Shown: positions 631 to 59,957, numbered from the stretch's first letter. The stretch: 64,000 bases of DNA from Candidatus Alistipes merdigallinarum (GCA_019119305.1 DWXH01000012.1:1-64000); one strand, 5' to 3'. The notes: a model not told the origin generated them from the sequence alone. Program-made: numbers and translations.

Positions 631-1794
631 ATGAAACATTATTCTTTTGCTTTGATTTTTGCGGGCCTTCTGCTCTATTCTTGCGGGGGGAACGGCACTT
701 CGAACTCAACCGGCGATCTCTCCCGAATGGATCGGGTAGAAATTAAGGACCAACGGCAAATTCCAGTCGATTCAGTTATCGAAAAAATTGACTACATCAA
801 ATTAGGCAAGACAGGTGATGCACTAATCGGCCAAGTAACGCATCTTTTGTTTACGCCCGATCACATTATCGTTGGAGATGCAGACCAAGCAAAGGCCATA
901 TTTATTTTCGATCGCGCAGGAAACTCGCAAGCGGTCATCAATCGATTAGGGCGTGGCCCTCAAGAATATCAAGGCATTACAGATATAGATATTTCTCCGG
1001 ATCAACAAAAGATAATAGTTTTAGATAGCTGGGGAGACAAACTATTAACTTTTGACATGAATGGAAATTTTCTAAATAAGCAAACTTTTACACCATTTTC
1101 AAGAATTGTAAAGTGGCTTGATCCTGAAACTATTTTAATAGGAATTTCTGGTGGTGACAATCCAGAACTTGACACGTATACGACTAAAGAAGACCTGTTG
1201 CTTTTTATGGATTCAACTCTACAATTCAAATACAGTGCATTTCCCAATCGATTTAATAGCGATATTTTTAAATTCGATCCACTTGTCGTAAAACGTTTCG
1301 ATGATCGTGTTTTGATTTCTGTTCCATATAGTGATACGATTTACCAATATACCTCTCACGGAATACAACCTCGTTATAAATTAGATATGGAAGAGGTCGA
1401 TGGAATTGCCAATTTCGGGAAAGACATGACAAATGAAAAATTACGTCAAATTAAAAATGATCACACCACTTTCCCTCATATATATGTTGAATCAGACGAT
1501 TTTTCATTATTTTATTTAAGTAAAGATAAAATTATGTTTCCTGTCTTGTTTAACAAAAACAACAAACAGACATACAACATAACCGCGCACCAATCACGAA
1601 CAGCTTTAGGAGAGTATATCTTATGGTCTGCATTTTCTCACAAGAATCAGTTTATCTCAGTCGTTCCAGCTTTTGAGTTTTTGACATTCTGTCCGGACGT
1701 CCCGGGTGTAGAATTGAGGAATGAGATCAAAGAGGGTCTTACTGATGAGGATAACCCCGTATTGTTGTTCTACACATTTAAAGATCCGGAATAA
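631..1794 (+). CDS. 6-bladed beta-propeller lipoprotein (array copy 2)
   Basis: Lipobox LLLYSCGG. Propeller-like motifs KIDYIKLG, IFIFDRAGN, INRLGRGPQEY typical of Bacteroidales 6-bladed beta-propeller proteins. Confidence 0.8.
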   Translation: MKHYSFALIFAGLLLYSCGGNGTSNSTGDLSRMDRVEIKDQRQIPVDSVIEKIDYIKLGKTGDALIGQVTHLLFTPDHIIVGDADQAKAIFIFDRAGNSQAVINRLGRGPQEYQGITDIDISPDQQKIIVLDSWGDKLLTFDMNGNFLNKQTFTPFSRIVKWLDPETILIGISGGDNPELDTYTTKEDLLLFMDSTLQFKYSAFPNRFNSDIFKFDPLVVKRFDDRVLISVPYSDTIYQYTSHGIQPRYKLDMEEVDGIANFGKDMTNEKLRQIKNDHTTFPHIYVESDDFSLFYLSKDKIMFPVLFNKNNKQTYNITAHQSRTALGEYILWSAFSHKNQFISVVPAFEFLTFCPDVPGVELRNEIKEGLTDEDNPVLLFYTFKDPE

Positions 1795-1842
1795 CAGGCA
1801 ACCGACACCAAAAACTGAAAATACAACCTAAAAACATCTAAA

Positions 1843-2985
1843 ATGAAACTTTATTCTATTACTTTGATTTTTGCAGGCCTTTTGCTCTACTCTTGCGGAC
1901 ACGGACCAAACAACAATGAATCTTCAGACTCCAATACCCTGCAAGTCGTGGTGGTTCCCGAACAGGCAGACATGCCGATAGACTCGATCATCGGAAAAGT
2001 CGACTACATCAAACTGGGCGATACAGGTGATGTACTGATCGGCGACGTAAGCAAACTATGGATCACGCCTCAACATATAGTCATCGTTGACAAGTTCAAA
2101 GCCATGTCTATCTTCGTTTTCGACCGAGCCGGCAATGCTCAGGCAGTCATCAATCGTTTGGGACGCGGCCCTCAGGAATATACAAGCCTGACTGACGTTT
2201 GTCTTACACCCGATCAGCAACGCATCGTTGTACTGGATAACAGCAAAAAGAAGCTATTATACTATAATATGGAGGGCGATTTTCTATATGACAAAAACAC
2301 ATCGTTCTGGATCGGAGACCTTGCGTATGCCGATGAACAGCATATTATCGCCAAAACCTATGGGGCACAAAATGAGGATCCCGGCCTGACTTCTTACGAA
2401 AACAAAGATGATAATCTCTATATATTAGACACATTGATGCATATCAAACAGAGTATGATGCCACGAACAGCGATTCTTAAACAATTTGAAGATCGGCTTT
2501 ATGTCAACGCCATACACGGCGATACCATATATCGTGTAGCAGGAAGCAACGGCCTCGTACCACAATACCGACTGGACATGTCCGCAATCAACGGGGTCAC
2601 TAACTTCGGAGAGGAATCCATGGAAAAGGTTATGGAAATTCGTAAAAACAATGCCTACTTTCCGAACGATTATGTGGATGGAAAGGATTTCGCTCTTTTT
2701 AGATTTTCGATGCCCGTTGCTCCATATATGCAACTGATTATGCATAACAAGCATACCGGACAAAACTACTCGATAGAAGGGGCAAGCAAAAAAGCTTTGA
2801 ATATTTATTTCATGGAAGTTAGTTATGCTTTTGACGATCAATTTGTTGCAGCCATTCCTGCATTTCGCTTCGTCGGAGATAATACCCCGATGCCCGGATC
2901 CGAGCAACGAGCAGCCATCCAAAAGAACCTTACCGATGACGATAATCCTGTACTGTTGTTCTACACGCTTAAAGACCCGGAATAA
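1843..2985 (+). CDS. 6-bladed beta-propeller lipoprotein (array copy 3)
   Basis: Lipobox LLLYSCGH. Same motifs KVDYIKLGDTGDVLIG, INRLGRGPQEYTSL, DDNPVLLFYTLKDPE. Confidence 0.8.
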   Translation: MKLYSITLIFAGLLLYSCGHGPNNNESSDSNTLQVVVVPEQADMPIDSIIGKVDYIKLGDTGDVLIGDVSKLWITPQHIVIVDKFKAMSIFVFDRAGNAQAVINRLGRGPQEYTSLTDVCLTPDQQRIVVLDNSKKKLLYYNMEGDFLYDKNTSFWIGDLAYADEQHIIAKTYGAQNEDPGLTSYENKDDNLYILDTLMHIKQSMMPRTAILKQFEDRLYVNAIHGDTIYRVAGSNGLVPQYRLDMSAINGVTNFGEESMEKVMEIRKNNAYFPNDYVDGKDFALFRFSMPVAPYMQLIMHNKHTGQNYSIEGASKKALNIYFMEVSYAFDDQFVAAIPAFRFVGDNTPMPGSEQRAAIQKNLTDDDNPVLLFYTLKDPE

Positions 2986-3033
2986 CAGACAACCGACATA
3001 AAGAACTGAAAATACAACCTAAAAACATCTAAT

Positions 3034-4194
3034 ATGAAACATTATTCTTTTGCTTTGATTTTTGCGGGCCTTCTGCTCTATTCTTGCGGAGGGAACGGCA
3101 CTTCAAACTCAACCGGCGATCTCTCCCGAATGGATCGGGTGGAAATTAAAGACCAACGGAAAATTTCAGTCGATTCAATCATAGAAAAGATCGATTACAT
3201 CAAATTAGGCAAGACCGGCGATGTATTGGTCGGACAAGTAACGCATCTTTTGTTTACGCCCGATCACATTATCGTTGGAGATGCAGACCAAGCAAAAGCC
3301 ATATTTATTTTCGATCGCGCAGGAAACTCGCAAGCGGTCATCAGTCGATTAGGACGCGGTCCTCAAGAATATATGAGTTTGCGTACAATTTTTCTCACTC
3401 CAGACCAACAAGCGATAGGGATTGTCGATAATTCCATGAAAAAATTATTGTATTTCGACCTGCAGGGAAATTTTATAAAAAAACAAGACCTTCCTTTTAG
3501 TTGTAACGGAATAGAGTTCCTCGACGATAAGAAGATGATGTTGGTTTCAGACGGATGGGCCGATAAGCTACCCGCACTCGAAACTTATCCAAATAAAAAA
3601 GATTTATTGTTCTTTACCGATACAACTTTGCAAATTCAAAGTAGTGCTATCGTAAATCCTTTCGATGTCAACAAGTTCAACTATGCACCTGTTTATAAGA
3701 AAAAATTCGATGATCGCATCTATGTCGGGAAAGCTTTTGGTGATACGATTTATCAGGTAACCGCAGATGAGATTTTTCCTCGTTATTGGATCGACATGAC
3801 CGCAGTTGACGGGGTTGCGAATTTTGGGGAAGATGCGTCGAATGAAAAGATTGCCCCAATGATGAATAATATACCTCTTTTCCCTGGCAATTTATACGTA
3901 GAATCTGACGATTATGCTCTGTTTCATATATCGGGAATGGGATGTGTTTTATTTAATAAACATACAAAAAAAGGTTATAATATAGAGTATGTTTCGCAAA
4001 CAGCCTTAGGAATGTATGTATTAAGCGCTGGATTTTCTCATAAAAATCAGGTTATATCCGTTATCCCCGCGTTCCAGTTCCTGACATTCTGTCCGGACGT
4101 TCCGGGTGTAGAATTGAGGAATGAGATCAAAGAGGGTCTTACCGATGAGGATAACCCCGTATTGCTGTTCTACACACTTAAAGATCCGGAATAA
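3034..4194 (+). CDS. 6-bladed beta-propeller lipoprotein (array copy 4)
   Basis: N- and C-terminal blocks nearly identical to the ORF at 631..1794, with a divergent centre. Confidence 0.8.
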   Translation: MKHYSFALIFAGLLLYSCGGNGTSNSTGDLSRMDRVEIKDQRKISVDSIIEKIDYIKLGKTGDVLVGQVTHLLFTPDHIIVGDADQAKAIFIFDRAGNSQAVISRLGRGPQEYMSLRTIFLTPDQQAIGIVDNSMKKLLYFDLQGNFIKKQDLPFSCNGIEFLDDKKMMLVSDGWADKLPALETYPNKKDLLFFTDTTLQIQSSAIVNPFDVNKFNYAPVYKKKFDDRIYVGKAFGDTIYQVTADEIFPRYWIDMTAVDGVANFGEDASNEKIAPMMNNIPLFPGNLYVESDDYALFHISGMGCVLFNKHTKKGYNIEYVSQTALGMYVLSAGFSHKNQVISVIPAFQFLTFCPDVPGVELRNEIKEGLTDEDNPVLLFYTLKDPE

Positions 4195-52348: not shown

Positions 52349-52385
52349 TTTGAATAAAAAAATTCTGCAAAATAAACTACCTTTG
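52349..52385 (+). promoter_or_regulatory. Candidate promoter for the cobalamin-riboswitch transcript (TTTG ... TACCTTTG)
   Basis: TTTG at 52349..52352 and TACCTTTG at 52378..52385; the spacer of 25 is longer than usual. Confidence 0.45.
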
Positions 52386-52585
52386 TCGTGCAATGGTTTT
52401 CGGGAAAATCCCCGAAACAAAAGGGAATGCCGTGCGAATCGGCAACAGTTACCGCTGCTGTATGTTTCACCCTCCGGAATCCGCAAACGCGAACCGAAGG
52501 AAAATCGTTTTAAATTTTTGCCACTGACCACATCGTTCGGGAAGGCTTTAAAACGGAAACAAGTCAGAAGACCTGCCTTGCAACA
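52386..52585 (+). ncRNA. Cobalamin (AdoCbl/B12) riboswitch
   Basis: GGGAATGCCGTGCGAATCGGCAACAGTTACCGCTGCTGTA core, GCCACTGA, and B12-box-like AAGTCAGAAGACCTGCCTTG (52561..52580), upstream of a propeller + BtuB-like pair. Confidence 0.9.
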
Positions 52586-52710
52586 TGGATTTTCGGCCTG
52601 CGGTCTTATGGGCGGAACCTCCGACGGATGGTTATCCTTCGTGAATCTTCAATCTGTCTCAGCACCTCCTCCATCAACTTCGCCGGCTACAACGTTTTAA
52701 TCGGAATCGA

Positions 52711-53796
52711 ATGAGTCGTCAAGTCAGCTCGGCAATCGCCTCCAGCTTTTTTATCGGAATCTTCCTGATACTCTCCGGTTGTATGCACTACGAACCGGTC
52801 GAACGGGAAAACATCAACTCGAATAAAGATACGAAAGGTCTCTTCATCCTGAATGAAGGGAATTTCCGCTCGGGGAACGCTTCGCTCTCCTACTACGATC
52901 CCGACTCGATGAAGGTCGAAAACTACATCTTCTACCGAACCAATGGAATCAAGCTCGGCGACGTTGCCCAATCGATGACCATCCGCGACAGTTTGGGATA
53001 CCTCGTCGTAAACAATTCAGGCATCATCTTCGTCATCAATGTCAATACGTTCCAACTGGTCGGCACAATACGCGGACTGGTCTCTCCCCGCTACATCCAC
53101 TTCCTGAGTGACGAAAAAGCCTACGTAACCGATCTGTACTCCTACTTCATCTCGGTGGTCAATCCCAAAGAGTTCAAAATCACCAAGCGGATCAATGTCC
53201 GTGTGAACGGGAAGGAGCAACCTTCGACCGAGCAGATGGTCCAATACAAAAACTTCATATTCACAAACTGCTGGTCGTACGACAACAAGATTCTGGTCAT
53301 CGACACGGAGACCGACTCGGTCGTGGACTACATTGAAGTCGGCATCCAACCGACTTCGTTAGTCATCGACAAATACAACAAAATCTGGACGATTACCGAC
53401 GGCGGATATGAAGGCAGTCCCTACGGTTATACGGCCCCGGCACTCTACCGGATCGATGCGGAGACCCGAAAAATCGAAAAAACGTTCAACTTCAAGCTCG
53501 GAGAGGGCGGCTCGGAAATCTGCATGAACGGGGCAAGGGATACGCTCTACTTCATCAACAAACACATCTGGCGGATGGCTGCGACAAGCGACGAGCTACC
53601 CGAAAAACCATTTCTCGAAAATCCGACCACCAACAACTGGTACGGACTGACGGTGAATCCCTACAACTCGGATGTCTATCTGGCCGATGCGATCGACTAC
53701 ACGCAACCCGGCCGCATCTACCGGTATAATGCACAGGGTGAGCTGCTTGACCAGTTCGAAGCCGGGATCATTCCGGGTGCATTCTGTTTCAAATAA
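52711..53796 (+). CDS. BtuG-like surface beta-propeller lipoprotein (YncE/DUF5074-like), cobalamin-linked
   Basis: Lipobox LILSGCMH; GLFILNEGNFRSGNASLSYYDPDSMKVEN; directly upstream of a TonB receptor and downstream of a cobalamin riboswitch. Confidence 0.82.
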   Translation: MSRQVSSAIASSFFIGIFLILSGCMHYEPVERENINSNKDTKGLFILNEGNFRSGNASLSYYDPDSMKVENYIFYRTNGIKLGDVAQSMTIRDSLGYLVVNNSGIIFVINVNTFQLVGTIRGLVSPRYIHFLSDEKAYVTDLYSYFISVVNPKEFKITKRINVRVNGKEQPSTEQMVQYKNFIFTNCWSYDNKILVIDTETDSVVDYIEVGIQPTSLVIDKYNKIWTITDGGYEGSPYGYTAPALYRIDAETRKIEKTFNFKLGEGGSEICMNGARDTLYFINKHIWRMAATSDELPEKPFLENPTTNNWYGLTVNPYNSDVYLADAIDYTQPGRIYRYNAQGELLDQFEAGIIPGAFCFK

Positions 53797-53808
53797 ACGC
53801 AAAGGATC

Positions 53809-55824
53809 ATGAAACGAACGATACTCACCGTCGGGCAACTATTGCTGACTTTGCTCACAGCCTCCGCCCAGACCCCGGATCACGGATATGACCTCGATGT
53901 TGTGACCGTTTCGGGCCGGAAACTCAGCGAGATGGGGACAACCCGGACACAACTCGACTCATCAGCCCTCAGGGAAAACGTTATCCACAGCATGGCCGAT
54001 GTGCTGGCACAGAACACCTCGATCTTCATCAAATCGTACGGACGAGGGACATTGGCTACAGCCTCATTCCGGGGCACAGCGCCGTCACACACCCAGGTAC
54101 AATGGAACGGCATGGCGGTCAACTCCCCGATGCTGGGTATGGTCGACTTCTCGCTGATTCCCTCCTACTTCATCGACAACGCGACCGTATATCACGGCGC
54201 CGGATCGGTCGGCGTAACGGGTGGCGGGCTCGGCGGAGCCATCACGCTGGAAACCAAAGCCCCGAAACAACGCGGCTTCAATCTGAATTTCATCCAGGGG
54301 ATCAGCAGTTTCGACACGTACGACGAATTTCTCCACCTGACCTACGGTACAGACCGGTTCCAGACCTCAACACGCTTCTGCTTCGTCACCTCGGACAACG
54401 ACTTCAAATACCGTAATTTCGACAAGATCGGCGAGAACAACGAGCTCTATCCCATCGAGCGCAACAAGAACTGCGAATTTCAGGACTGGCACCTGATGCA
54501 GGAGTTTTTCTATAAAAAAGACGACCGCAACCGGTTCGGGCTGTCGGCTTGGTTCATGAATTCGCAACGCGGCATCCCGATGCTTTCGGTCGACTATCGG
54601 GACGAGAACCGTTCGAAAGACCTGCAAGGAGAAAAGACCCTTCGTGTAGTCGGAAATTGGAAGCACACGACCGACCGCATCCTGATGGAAACCCGTGTCG
54701 GATATACCTACTCCGACATGCTCTACCGCTTGTGGAACGATATGGGAACCGAAGAGCTTTCGGAAAGCCTGCATGCCGCAAGCAAAATCCACACCGGATA
54801 CGGCTCTTTCGAAATACAATACACGCCCTCGGAAAAGTGGTACATCACCGGCAGCGCCTCGGCCTACCTGCATGCCGTCAAAAGCAGCAACAAAACCGCT
54901 AACGATACGATCAAAGAGGGGTATTACCACACCCGGGTCGAGACATCGCTATACGCCAGCGTACGCTACCGTCCCCACCCCCGCATCGGATTAGGTGTCG
55001 ACTTGCGCGAGGAAAGCTATGGAGACAAGATCACCCCACCGATCCCCGCTGCATTCGTCGACTTCACGCTGTGGCCCAAATACGACGTTGTGCTGAAAGG
55101 CTCTTTTACGCGAAATTACCGCTATCCGTCGATGAACGACCTCTACTTCCAACCGGGCGGAAACGACTCGCTGCAGACGGAAAAGGGATACACCTACGAA
55201 GGCGGTGTAACCTTCGGTATACACCGCAAGAAATTTGCTTTCACAGGAGAGGGTACGGCCTACAACTCCATGTTCCGGGACTGGATCCTCTGGATGCCCA
55301 AAGGGGAAAACAAGGGTTACTGGACCCCATGCAACGTCAAGAAAGTGCACAGCTACGGGGTCGAATTGCAGGGTAAACTGGCCGTCCAGCTCGCCCCCAA
55401 CTGGAACCTTTTCATGGATGCCCATTGGGCCTGGACGCGATCGCTGAACATGGACGACCCGAAAGGGTGGACCGACGGGTCAATCGGCAAACAGTTGGTC
55501 TACATTCCGGAGTTCTCCTCCTCGATCACCGGACGGATCAGTTGGAAAAGCTGGTCGTTCTCCTACAAATACCACCATTACAGCGAACGATACACCACCT
55601 CGAGCAACGAGAAGGCCTACCGGCTCTACTACATCGGTCCCTACTACATGAGCGACATCTATCTCGAAAAATCACTCTCGCTGCGGTTTGCGGATCTTTC
55701 GCTCAAGGTATGCGTCTACAACCTGTTCAACGAGGACTACGTATCGGTTCTTTCGCGGCCGATGGCCAAACGCAACTACAGCCTGTTCATCGGAATCACC
55801 CCCAAATGGGGTCGAAAAAAATAA
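53809..55824 (+). CDS. btuB: BtuB-like TonB-dependent receptor (cobalamin transport)
   Basis: Signal peptide, plug domain (LDVVTVSGRKLSEMGTTRTQLDSSALRENVIHSMADVLAQNTSIFIKSYGRGTLATASFRGTAPSHTQVQWNGMAVNSPMLGMVD), C-terminal barrel (YNLFNEDYVSVLSRPMAKRNYSLFIGITPKWG), riboswitch-controlled. Confidence 0.83.
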   Translation: MKRTILTVGQLLLTLLTASAQTPDHGYDLDVVTVSGRKLSEMGTTRTQLDSSALRENVIHSMADVLAQNTSIFIKSYGRGTLATASFRGTAPSHTQVQWNGMAVNSPMLGMVDFSLIPSYFIDNATVYHGAGSVGVTGGGLGGAITLETKAPKQRGFNLNFIQGISSFDTYDEFLHLTYGTDRFQTSTRFCFVTSDNDFKYRNFDKIGENNELYPIERNKNCEFQDWHLMQEFFYKKDDRNRFGLSAWFMNSQRGIPMLSVDYRDENRSKDLQGEKTLRVVGNWKHTTDRILMETRVGYTYSDMLYRLWNDMGTEELSESLHAASKIHTGYGSFEIQYTPSEKWYITGSASAYLHAVKSSNKTANDTIKEGYYHTRVETSLYASVRYRPHPRIGLGVDLREESYGDKITPPIPAAFVDFTLWPKYDVVLKGSFTRNYRYPSMNDLYFQPGGNDSLQTEKGYTYEGGVTFGIHRKKFAFTGEGTAYNSMFRDWILWMPKGENKGYWTPCNVKKVHSYGVELQGKLAVQLAPNWNLFMDAHWAWTRSLNMDDPKGWTDGSIGKQLVYIPEFSSSITGRISWKSWSFSYKYHHYSERYTTSSNEKAYRLYYIGPYYMSDIYLEKSLSLRFADLSLKVCVYNLFNEDYVSVLSRPMAKRNYSLFIGITPKWGRKK

Positions 55825-55894
55825 CGATGCGGAGCACCGCTTGATGCCCCGCACCGCCTTTATTCATTCGTATTTTCGTATTCCTACCGCTACC

Positions 55895-57691
55895 CTATTT
55901 TGTAGTGAATTCATACTGAGTCGCAGCATCCTTCGTGTAGCAGGGCAACGTTCCGACTCCCCCCATAAAATAGGTGGCATCCGGATTGAAATCGGCCGGC
56001 ACACGAATCGTAGTCAACTGATTGTTTTGAGCCGCCATTCGCGTCAGGTTCAGATGAGCCAGATCCAATACTCCTGTCAGTTGATTATCCGAACAGTTCA
56101 GCTCCCATATCCGGGACAATCCTGCCAAACTGAGTTCCGTCAGCTGATTTCCTGAACAGAGCAAACCACCCAGCATCACACAATTATTCACATCAAGCGA
56201 AGTCAGTTCATTACCACAAATCTCTAACCAATAGAGATAAGTCTGTCGCGATAGATCAATCGACGTAAGCTGGTTGTTGTTCAACTTCATGTATAAATAG
56301 GGTTCACCCGCATGATCGTAACCCGAATTTGCTGCACTGGGTGTATCAAACGTCTTGTCACCCATATTGATCTCTTCAATCTGGTTGTTCTGCGCCTCCA
56401 GATAGCCGAGTTTCGTCTGGCTGAAATCGAGTTTCCCGATCCGATTGTCGGCACAATTCAAATGAACCAACTCCGTACAATGAGTCAAATCGAGCTCGGC
56501 AATCGTATTGTAGGGACACGACAAGGTCTCCAATTGGGTACAAGCCGTCACATCGAGCGCCGACAGCGCATTGTGCCCGCAATTGAGCATCGTCAACTCC
56601 TTGTTATTACTCAAATCGAGCTCTTGGATCTTCGGATTACCATAGGTCGTCAGCTGCTTCAATTTCGGATTGTGCGTCACATCCAATGCGTCCAGGCCAT
56701 ATCCTTCGACATTGCTGCTGACACAATTCAACACCTCAAGTTCAGGATTTTGACTCAGATCGATCTTCTCAATCGGAGTCAGATCCCAATAGGTATGGCA
56801 GCAATACCCCATATCCAACACCCTCAGTTTCGGATTGTGCGTCACATCCAATGCCGAAAGGTTCAAAAAGTATACATCCAACTCTTCCAATTCGGGATTC
56901 TGTGTTACATCAATCTGCGTAATACCCAAATCATCGTAACTTCTTCCCCCATTCATACCGCACTGCATCGTAATCAGTTTCGGGTTATGCGTCACATCGA
57001 GTGCCGACAGACGATTACTCCGGCAATTCAAATGGACCAGATCAGGCAACATCGTTACATCGAGTTCGGCAATCCGGTTACTGTGACAATAGAGCTCTTT
57101 CAACTTCGTATTGTAAGACACGTCGAGTGAATCCAACAAGTTGATACCGCAGTCCAACACCTCCAGATTCGTGAAATATTCGATTCCCCGCAGCGACTTG
57201 ATCTCCTGCCCATTCACATTGATCTCGGTAATCAACTCTGCTTCCCATCGCTGCAACACGCCATCGTTGTTCTTATCGAACTGGAGCACCAGCGCCGCAA
57301 AACGATTGTCTTCGAACAACAACTCCTCATTGGGATCTGTCCCCCCTGCCTCGATAACCGTAACGACACACGTAGCCCGAACGGACGTATTGCTCTTCAG
57401 ACAAACTGTCACTGTACTCTCCCCTGCGGACAACGCCTGCACCGTTCCGTCCTGAGCGACACCTGCCACAGCCTCCTTCGAACTGCTCCACGACAGTTCG
57501 ACCGGAAGCGTCGCATTATTGGGAAGATACGTCACCTCGATCTGTTTCGTTTCCCCGATCTGAAGCGTCATATTTTCGGCGATCGACAAGCCCGTTACGG
57601 CGATCGTTCCATCCTCGTCGTTCTTATCGCATCCCGACAGGCAAAAAACCGCCAAAACCATCCACAAAAAATAATTCTTCATACTTGACAT
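55895..57691 (-). CDS. Leucine-rich-repeat lipoprotein with N-terminal bacterial Ig-like (Big_2) domain
   Basis: Internal start MSSMKNYFLWMVLAVFCLSGCDKN (57691 or 57682). Ig-like VTGLSIAENMTLQIGETKQIEVTYLPNNAT...SWSSSKEAVAGVAQDGTVQALSAGESTVTV. LRR-type repeats LxxLDVTHNPKLxxLxC. Confidence 0.85.
   Translation of the reverse strand: MSSMKNYFLWMVLAVFCLSGCDKNDEDGTIAVTGLSIAENMTLQIGETKQIEVTYLPNNATLPVELSWSSSKEAVAGVAQDGTVQALSAGESTVTVCLKSNTSVRATCVVTVIEAGGTDPNEELLFEDNRFAALVLQFDKNNDGVLQRWEAELITEINVNGQEIKSLRGIEYFTNLEVLDCGINLLDSLDVSYNTKLKELYCHSNRIAELDVTMLPDLVHLNCRSNRLSALDVTHNPKLITMQCGMNGGRSYDDLGITQIDVTQNPELEELDVYFLNLSALDVTHNPKLRVLDMGYCCHTYWDLTPIEKIDLSQNPELEVLNCVSSNVEGYGLDALDVTHNPKLKQLTTYGNPKIQELDLSNNKELTMLNCGHNALSALDVTACTQLETLSCPYNTIAELDLTHCTELVHLNCADNRIGKLDFSQTKLGYLEAQNNQIEEINMGDKTFDTPSAANSGYDHAGEPYLYMKLNNNQLTSIDLSRQTYLYWLEICGNELTSLDVNNCVMLGGLLCSGNQLTELSLAGLSRIWELNCSDNQLTGVLDLAHLNLTRMAAQNNQLTTIRVPADFNPDATYFMGGVGTLPCYTKDAATQYEFTTK
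55960..57220 (-). repeat. Internal leucine-rich repeats (about 20-24 aa units, LDVTHNPKL / LDLSNNKEL / IDLSQNPEL type)
   Basis: Recurrent coding units such as LSALDVTHNPKLITMQC, LSALDVTHNPKLRVLDM, LDALDVTHNPKLKQLTT, LSALDVTACTQLETLSC. Boundaries approximate. Confidence 0.75.
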
Positions 57692-57720
57692 ACGAAATAC
57701 TCCATTTACTGATAAACGAA

Positions 57721-57759
57721 ACGGAGGCATGAAAGATCGGCAATCCCACATGCCTCCGT
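57721..57759 (-). promoter_or_regulatory. Intergenic hairpin between the PKD/DUF5074-like and LRR genes
   Basis: Perfect 11-bp arms ACGGAGGCATG / CATGCCTCCGT with a 17-nt loop. T run after it on the minus strand is weak (TTTCGTTT). Confidence 0.5.
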
Positions 57760-57783
57760 AGATATCATCCGACGGTCTACCGA

Positions 57784-59565
57784 TTACTCTCCGAACGTAT
57801 AGGTCGAATAGACACCTCCGTCTCCGGATACAGTTCCGATTGCGTTCTGGATGTCGCCCAGCTGAGCTCCGCTCTCAATATCGAACACACCGATGCTGAT
57901 CGCACTGTAATTCGTCGTCGGCACATAGAGACGCCCCTCCGAATCAGCTGCCATATATTTGGAGACCATACTATTGAGGCCTTTTCCCGTTATATCGACA
58001 AACAGAGAGGTCGTTCCGGTCTTGTAATTGTACTTATAGACTTTGGTCGTGCTGTAACCGCCCCCTCCTTTGAAGAAGAGTTCATCGCTGGTCAACGAAG
58101 CACACGTTCCGGAACCTTCCAATCCTGCATTGATATCGGTTTGCTTCCCATCGATCAGAATCGGCGTCTCGGTATATACAAAGGTCTGCGGATCGATTGC
58201 CAGAACCGAAGCGGCTGAGGTAAACGGCTCCATACCCCACAACCAATATCCGGTTTTTGCCATAGCACCGGCTACCAGAGCATATACGTTACCGTCGCGT
58301 CCACGAACGACATCGGCAATCTGACGATCCTCGGCAATCATGATCGATGTGAGTTCTTTGTCCGTCTCACTATCGAATACTTTCAGTTTATTTCCACAAC
58401 CGATATAGACATTTTTACCCACTTTGAGCATCCGAGACCAGCAAGGCCCATCCACTCCGATATTGCCGCTTGCCCCCGACAGCGGAACAAACGTATTCTG
58501 TCCGTCCGGTTGTACGGTCAGCACATGGACACTCGACACATTATTCGCATTGGAGTTGTTACTGCCTACATAAAATTTATCGGCCGACACGGCAAGCAAA
58601 TTGTAAATCTCTCCAAGTGAGCTCGTATTGAACCCTTCCGCGGTGATCACACGCTCTTTCTTCAGCGTCTGTGCATCGCACTCGACGATTTGTGCACGGC
58701 TCGAAGCAGATGAAGGCGTCAACAGATAAATCTTCCCGTTGCAAATCGACAGGTCATTCAATCCGCCATCTCCGATCGTCTCTCCATTCAACTCCTGATA
58801 GAGGTGGTCCTGATAAAACAGATTCTTTGCCGGATCGAAAAATGCAATTCCCTCATACGTCGTTCCGTAGAACCACAGACCCGACTTGAACGGACCGTTG
58901 ACATGCACGGTAAAGGAGACGGTAGTCGACAGCTGATCCCGATTGATCACCTCCACTTCAAAAGCGTTCGTTCCGCTATGGGTCAGGTCGAGCGTATACT
59001 CCTTCGTCTGGTTCTCGAGCACTTCGCCATTAAGCGTCCACTTGTACTCGCTGATCTCGACATTACCCGCATTCAAGACAATCGGCATGGTCCCTTCGGC
59101 AACCTCCACATCGAGACTTCCTCCGTCCTCCAACTGCATCTCTCCACAAAGAACGGTAACGACCGGAGCCGGATCTTTCACGGTCAGCGTCATGAATTCC
59201 TGTGCGGCAGATCCGCCATCGGCATTATAAAGCACCACCTTGACAGAGTAGTCTCCCCGCTGTGCAGGCGTCAGAACAAAAGTCGGCCCGTCAGCTTCGC
59301 TGTTAACCGTGCCATTGACCGACCACTCGTAACGAACGATCTCGACATTCTCACATTTCACCGTATAGGTCACAACTGATCCTACTACGACATCGCTGCC
59401 TGCACCCGATTCCCAATTTACCGAAAAGTTAGAAACGACCGGAGCCGGTAGTCCGTCATTCTTCGAGCACGATACGAAAACGCTCGCCACAATCACCAAA
59501 AAACAGTACAGAAATTTTTTCATCTTCACTGTAAAATTTAAAAATAGGTTAATAAAATTTTCCAA
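57784..59565 (-). CDS. PKD-like + DUF5074-like beta-propeller surface lipoprotein, cobalamin-riboswitch linked
   Basis: Lipobox ASVFVSCSK. Two PKD-like domains (YTVKCENVEIVRYEWSVNGTVNSEADGPTFVLTPAQRGDYSVKVVLYNADGGSA...). C-terminal propeller (NDLSICNGKIYLL, VYIGCGNKLKVFDSETDKEL, VYKYNYKTG). Confidence 0.82.
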   Translation of the reverse strand: MENFINLFLNFTVKMKKFLYCFLVIVASVFVSCSKNDGLPAPVVSNFSVNWESGAGSDVVVGSVVTYTVKCENVEIVRYEWSVNGTVNSEADGPTFVLTPAQRGDYSVKVVLYNADGGSAAQEFMTLTVKDPAPVVTVLCGEMQLEDGGSLDVEVAEGTMPIVLNAGNVEISEYKWTLNGEVLENQTKEYTLDLTHSGTNAFEVEVINRDQLSTTVSFTVHVNGPFKSGLWFYGTTYEGIAFFDPAKNLFYQDHLYQELNGETIGDGGLNDLSICNGKIYLLTPSSASSRAQIVECDAQTLKKERVITAEGFNTSSLGEIYNLLAVSADKFYVGSNNSNANNVSSVHVLTVQPDGQNTFVPLSGASGNIGVDGPCWSRMLKVGKNVYIGCGNKLKVFDSETDKELTSIMIAEDRQIADVVRGRDGNVYALVAGAMAKTGYWLWGMEPFTSAASVLAIDPQTFVYTETPILIDGKQTDINAGLEGSGTCASLTSDELFFKGGGGYSTTKVYKYNYKTGTTSLFVDITGKGLNSMVSKYMAADSEGRLYVPTTNYSAISIGVFDIESGAQLGDIQNAIGTVSGDGGVYSTYTFGE

Positions 59566-59659
59566 ACGATTTTACAGCGAACGATGTGTGAGCAGAGAGC
59601 TCCAATGACGAAGAACTCGCCATAACATTACCGACCCATACACCGCAGGCAAGTAAAAT

Positions 59660-59830
59660 CCATTTCAAGGCAGGTCTTCTGACTCGTTCCTGTTTTAAAG
59701 CCTTCCCAACATCCGGCAACGTCAGTGGCACAAATTTTAAAACTTTTTGACCCGCAGACACATCTGCGAGCAGGAACATACAGCAGCGGTAACTGTTGCC
59801 GATTCGCACGGCATTCCCTTTTCATCTTTA
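59660..59830 (-). ncRNA. Cobalamin (AdoCbl/B12) riboswitch, second copy, opposite strand
   Basis: Minus strand: AAAAGGGAATGCCGTGCGAATCGGCAACAGTTACCGCTGCTGTATGTTCC ... GCCACTGACGTTGCC ... GAAGGCTTTAAAACAGGAACGAGTCAGAAGACCTGCCTTG. Same core and B12-box-like signature as the copy at 52386..52585. Confidence 0.9.
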
Positions 59831-59849
59831 CTACGAGAACCTTGTCCGG

Positions 59850-59857
59850 CAAAAGTA
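59850..59857 (-). promoter_or_regulatory. Candidate -7 element TACTTTTG upstream of the second riboswitch
   Basis: Minus-strand TAnnTTTG match about 25 nt before the riboswitch core; no clear -33. Confidence 0.4.
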
Positions 59858-59957
59858 ATATTTTTTACCGGAAAACCGACAGCCCTCGAAAAATAAATTG
59901 TTTTTCCCATCAAAAATCCGCTGCAGTTCTGTCTCCCATTGCTAAAATCATTTTCCT

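Follow-up and report, generated by a model that had tools for sequence, protein, structure and literature searches.

Results

Two cobalamin riboswitches bracket a pair of convergent operons

A search of the window (the whole 64,000-nucleotide stretch of Candidatus Alistipes merdigallinarum DNA that was analysed) against all Rfam families at the gathering threshold (cmscan) returned two hits only, both to the Cobalamin family, RF00174. One aptamer lies on the plus strand at 52376..52594 (85.9 bits, E 9e-20), 5′ of btuG-btuB, and the other on the minus strand at 59652..59859 (83.7 bits, E 3.8e-19), 5′ of an operon encoding a BtuK-like protein and a leucine-rich repeat (LRR) protein. Both matches are full length, exceed the family's gathering cut-off of 31.5 bits and are on the right strand upstream of their operons, confirming the riboswitch signature that a first-pass annotation of this DNA had noticed at both ends of the locus. 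The pair, which makes up two of the four cobalamin riboswitches in this genome, brackets four genes arranged as two convergent two-gene operons. The layout is as first described, except that the likeliest start of the BtuK-like gene is the ATG at 59523 and not the TTG at 59565.

Functional cobalamin riboswitches are expected to have a kissing loop. Both aptamers carry ACCGC in L5, and in each the complementary GCGGT follows the match after 5 bases; together these are candidates for an L5-L13 kissing pair between aptamer and expression platform. The arrangement is similar in close relatives, whereas in distant ones the spacing differs or the pair is absent. Between the stop codons of the two operons sits a strong hairpin (55823..55858, minus strand; 16 pairs, nine of them G-C, followed by a T-run), which is a candidate terminator and may be shared by both convergent operons, although terminator-like sites in the region are no more numerous than in shuffles.

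The plus-strand operon encodes BtuG and a BtuB-type receptor

The first gene of the plus-strand operon (52711..53796, 361 aa) encodes a DUF5074 surface lipoprotein that matches BtuG2 (PDB 8bmx_D) along its length (phmmer E 2.4e-141). Of the five aromatic pocket residues of BtuG2 named in the structure paper (PMC10404256), four are kept (W194, Y239, Y316 and Y335) and W272 is replaced by G. As judged by homology, this protein is a close BtuG2 homologue and the true BtuG of the locus, predicted to form a seven-bladed propeller, to bind corrinoids and to cap BtuB. The second gene (53809..55824, 671 aa; PF00593 and PF07715) encodes a TonB-dependent outer-membrane receptor that matches TIGR01779 (TonB-B12) yet scores under the cut-off of the E. 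coli-type BtuB models, and so its name rests on its btuG neighbour and the riboswitch. BtuG-BtuB complexes are documented (PMC10404256), and a receptor of this type adjoins btuG in every relative that keeps the convergent module.

The first minus-strand gene encodes a BtuK-like lipoprotein

The riboswitch-proximal gene of the minus-strand operon (57784..59523) encodes a 579 aa protein with the lipoprotein signal MKKFLYCFLVIVASVFVSC and a VSC lipobox, in which two PKD/Ig domains (Pfam PKD and PKD-like) precede a DUF5074 propeller (94.3 bits). In a Foldseek search of the PDB, its AlphaFold model (mean pLDDT 87) best matched 4r5o (BT1487; E 2e-15), with BtuG1, the B12-binding lipoprotein 7biz (E 2e-9) and BtuK1 (9s6c) next in rank among bacterial B12 proteins. 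By sequence, 4r5o was the sole PDB match up to E 1 (phmmer E 2e-7). The first-pass annotation had left this propeller unidentified; its nearest characterised relatives are BtuK2 (4r5o), BtuK1 and BtuG. BT_1487 is the BtuK2 of Bacteroides thetaiotaomicron described in a 2025 paper (PMC12751083), which found BtuK1 and BtuK2 to be riboswitch-regulated lipoproteins that are induced without B12 and enriched in vesicles; in the same study BtuK1 bound cobalamin tightly and BtuK2 showed no binding. The BtuK kind is therefore recently described, and after that paper a BtuK-like gene would count as ordinary.

Profile-profile comparison (hhalign) showed that the propeller clade is homologous to BtuG (probability 99.3, E 2.4e-19), and the same alignment placed no aromatic residue opposite W194 and Y239 of BtuG2. 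Because these counterparts are missing despite the homology, we regard the protein as BtuK-like and not as a second BtuG. Its sequence and modelled fold identify it as a BtuK-like accessory B12 surface lipoprotein with putative corrinoid binding; such binding should not be assumed, since BtuK2 did not bind in the published assay and W194 and Y239 lack equivalents. The propeller also diverges fast (22-48% identity beyond the closest relative), which would be unusual for a protein with a fixed small ligand.

The protein resembles several known B12 lipoproteins. BtuK1 and BtuK2 (BT_1486/BT_1487) likewise combine Ig-like and propeller domains and are encoded in a riboswitch operon with btuB and btuG, but here there are two PKD/Ig domains in front, an LRR lipoprotein as partner and a separate convergent operon; the likeness is one of sequence and predicted fold, with identity as low as 17-18% over the structural alignment. 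BtuG (BT_1954 and relatives) shares the DUF5074 family but lacks the PKD domains in front. BtuH2 (BT_1956), an accessory B12 lipoprotein under riboswitch control, has similar PKD-type N-terminal domains (PMC8941943) and accounts for the Foldseek match to 7biz, but whereas BtuH ends in a globular B12-binding domain, Pfam and AlphaFold found no C-terminal BtuH domain in the BtuK-like protein, whose C-terminal domain is the propeller. Six other proteins considered as propeller homologues (the second gene of L034, the 398 aa protein of L037, those of L041, L043 and L044, and the 572 aa protein of L105) matched through PKD only and were left out of the homologue count because their C-termini look BtuH2-like.

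The second minus-strand gene encodes a conserved LRR lipoprotein

The partner gene (55895..57691, minus strand) encodes a 598 aa lipoprotein, as judged by its signal sequence, that combines InlJ-type LRRs with a Big_2 domain and an EF-hand-like DxNxDG segment (Pfam LRR_4 and Big_2). Its best PDB match, both for the predicted model (pLDDT 88; Foldseek) and for the sequence (phmmer), is internalin J (InlJ, 3bz5), which it resembles in LRR fold and in the recurrence of a cysteine at one fixed position in many repeats. InlJ itself comes from Listeria and another type of locus, whereas here the LRRs belong to a lipoprotein that has Big_2 at its N terminus and is encoded in an operon under B12 control. 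Proteins are the usual ligands of LRR proteins with the InlJ/InlA fold. Conservation along the present protein peaks in a stretch with a mean pairwise identity of 0.75-0.80, compared with 0.60 over the repeats, and this stretch includes an irregular LRR loop, CCHTYWDLTPIE, near residues 296-308; this local conservation suggests a specific binding site. The LRR lipoprotein is also better conserved than its BtuK-like partner (for example, 41% versus about 25% in L095 and L096). A literature search of freely readable papers returned nothing relevant on LRR proteins in B12 loci or B12 uptake. We conclude that the LRR lipoprotein is an accessory component of the B12 locus, and a new part of it that specialists would not have expected.

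The convergent module is conserved across genera

The LRR lipoprotein or relatives at 41-87% identity occur in 8 of the family's 268 genomes, counting the one that the window comes from, and the search score falls sharply below this orthologue set (from 326 to 141 bits). A contig search with the LRR alignment found a further relative (52%) in L113, from a metagenome assembly labelled Prevotellaceae. The resulting nine loci span at least five genera, and all lie within B12 loci; at each of the eight that could be tested, a riboswitch and a BtuK-like gene precede the LRR orthologue. The full order (riboswitch, btuG and btuB, then the LRR and BtuK-like genes facing them, then the second riboswitch) is present in the window and in L030, L031, L094, L095, L096 and L113, and the L097 copy breaks off within the LRR gene, where the contig ends. 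The synteny check proposed in the first-pass annotation thus finds the convergent module at 8 loci in total. At the ninth, L093, the riboswitch and the BtuK-like and LRR genes occur without btuGB nearby. Two of these loci carry additional cobalamin riboswitches: in L094 they stand in tandem 5′ of the BtuK-like-LRR operon (G307:C5:301705-301935 and 302113-302325, minus strand), and in L113 a third lies beside the module, facing away (662-865, minus strand).

InlJ-type LRR hits as such are common, occurring in 57 of the 268 genomes. Hits outside the clade (G034, G195, G227, G011 and G004) were far from cobalamin riboswitches or on other contigs, and no cobalamin riboswitch was found around the LRR hits L116-L120. 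The orthologue itself is rare, since a search of 393 sampled Bacteroidales genomes (E <= 1e-50) returned the window's own alone.

The genome points to dependence on imported B12

Two large proteins with B12-binding domains are encoded in this genome, one of 1221 aa (the size of MetH) and one of 715 aa (the size of methylmalonyl-CoA mutase). De novo corrin synthesis needs several TP_methylase genes, and only one is present, so the organism very likely depends on B12 salvage. Another riboswitch (L040) heads genes that read as btuF, btuC and btuD together with late cobamide-assembly genes. Because corrin-ring methyltransferases are missing while B12-dependent enzymes and salvage genes are present, the locus is probably the main B12 entry point of the genome.

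Three further observations concern the same genome. A small B12-binding-domain protein of about 212 aa (G000:C23:9507-9848, plus strand) is possibly a corrinoid methyltransferase subunit. A cobalamin riboswitch (L039:720-915, plus strand; C21:150719-150914 in this genome) lies 5′ of genes for an apparent biotin-dependent acyl-CoA carboxylase (505, 173 and 510 aa), which perhaps belongs to a propionyl/methylmalonyl-CoA pathway needing B12. At 631-4194 of the window (plus strand), three tandem, closely similar propeller-like lipoproteins of 380-387 aa apparently reflect a recent local duplication.

Discussion

We consider it probable that the four genes serve a B12-dependent, Alistipes-like member of the Rikenellaceae as its locus for acquiring B12 at the outer membrane, in which BtuK-like corrinoid capture is combined with an LRR docking partner. 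This reading builds on the riboswitches, the gene identities, the homology to BtuK and BtuG and the conserved synteny, all of which are observed. From these we infer B12-dependent expression: at low cobamide levels inside the cell, the two riboswitches would permit expression of their operons. The plus-strand operon would then supply the uptake complex of BtuB pore and BtuG lid, and the minus-strand operon two lipoproteins, the BtuK-like PKD-propeller and the LRR protein, both predicted to be exposed at the surface. The BtuK-like protein most likely catches corrinoid, or retains it, at the surface of the cell or of outer-membrane vesicles and passes it on to BtuBG; the LRR protein is most likely its protein-binding partner and would dock it to that complex or to some other surface. 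The first-pass proposal that the minus-strand operon is an auxiliary surface B12 module is partly supported: the operon is part of the B12 regulon, both of its products are predicted surface lipoproteins, and across genera it is kept beside btuG-btuB. More tentatively, and with more doubt than confidence, we suggest that the LRR lipoprotein, which occurs in Rikenellaceae and in one other assembly of the Bacteroidales, represents a new class of Btu component through which a BtuK-type corrinoid catcher would dock to BtuBG or would take B12 from other proteins.

Whether the BtuK-like protein captures corrinoid at all bears on a different reading, in which the second operon would be a vesicle or surface-organisation module that is switched on in B12 starvation, does not bind the vitamin, and helps to release or decorate vesicles carrying other B12 binders. 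The precedent is that BtuK2 and BtuL were strongly induced and vesicle-enriched and neither bound cobalamin (PMC12751083); the nearest PDB relative of the propeller is BtuK2 itself, and the BtuG pocket residues are lost. We nevertheless consider this unlikely, given that BtuK1, also a fold relative, does bind, that no BtuJ, BtuL or BtuH gene was seen at the locus, and that the genome holds no DUF5074 protein above cut-off beyond BtuG and the BtuK-like protein. The fast divergence of the propeller, taken with the InlJ-type fold of its partner and the conserved CCHTYWDLTPIE loop, would also be consistent with a pair whose ligand is not free corrinoid but a protein loaded with B12, from the host (a carrier) or from another bacterium (a B12-binding lipoprotein), the LRR protein serving as recognition arm and the propeller taking the vitamin. 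This is quite improbable in our estimate; the LRR protein occurs in the Prevotellaceae-labelled assembly (L113) as well, and thus no specific host carrier is implied.

Given how common InlJ-type LRR proteins are, the LRR lipoprotein could in principle be a generic adhesin placed behind a B12 riboswitch by chance. We give this hardly any weight: the orthologues follow a BtuK-like gene in a B12-riboswitch operon at all testable loci, in several genera, whereas the other LRR hits are not near a cobalamin riboswitch. The riboswitch association and these LRR controls together rule it out as the main reading of this protein.

Competition for B12 among gut Bacteroidota involves a growing number of surface lipoproteins (BtuG, BtuH, BtuJ and BtuK), and the present locus takes the BtuK type beyond Bacteroides and pairs it constantly with an LRR lipoprotein. 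Because the module is small, with four genes, and conserved across genera, the role of each accessory lipoprotein is testable in it. For annotation, DUF5074 propellers are useful as close markers of B12-riboswitch loci in Bacteroidales: among the 17 genomes of the order with a propeller-profile hit to a DUF5074-type protein and mapped riboswitches, in 16 such a hit lay no more than 6 kb downstream of a cobalamin riboswitch on its own strand. A further type of accessory lipoprotein is found in other Rikenellaceae B12 operons, where DUF4988-DUF5074 fusion lipoproteins are encoded by the first gene past the riboswitch (L034:7490-9478, plus strand; L105:9862-11754, minus strand).
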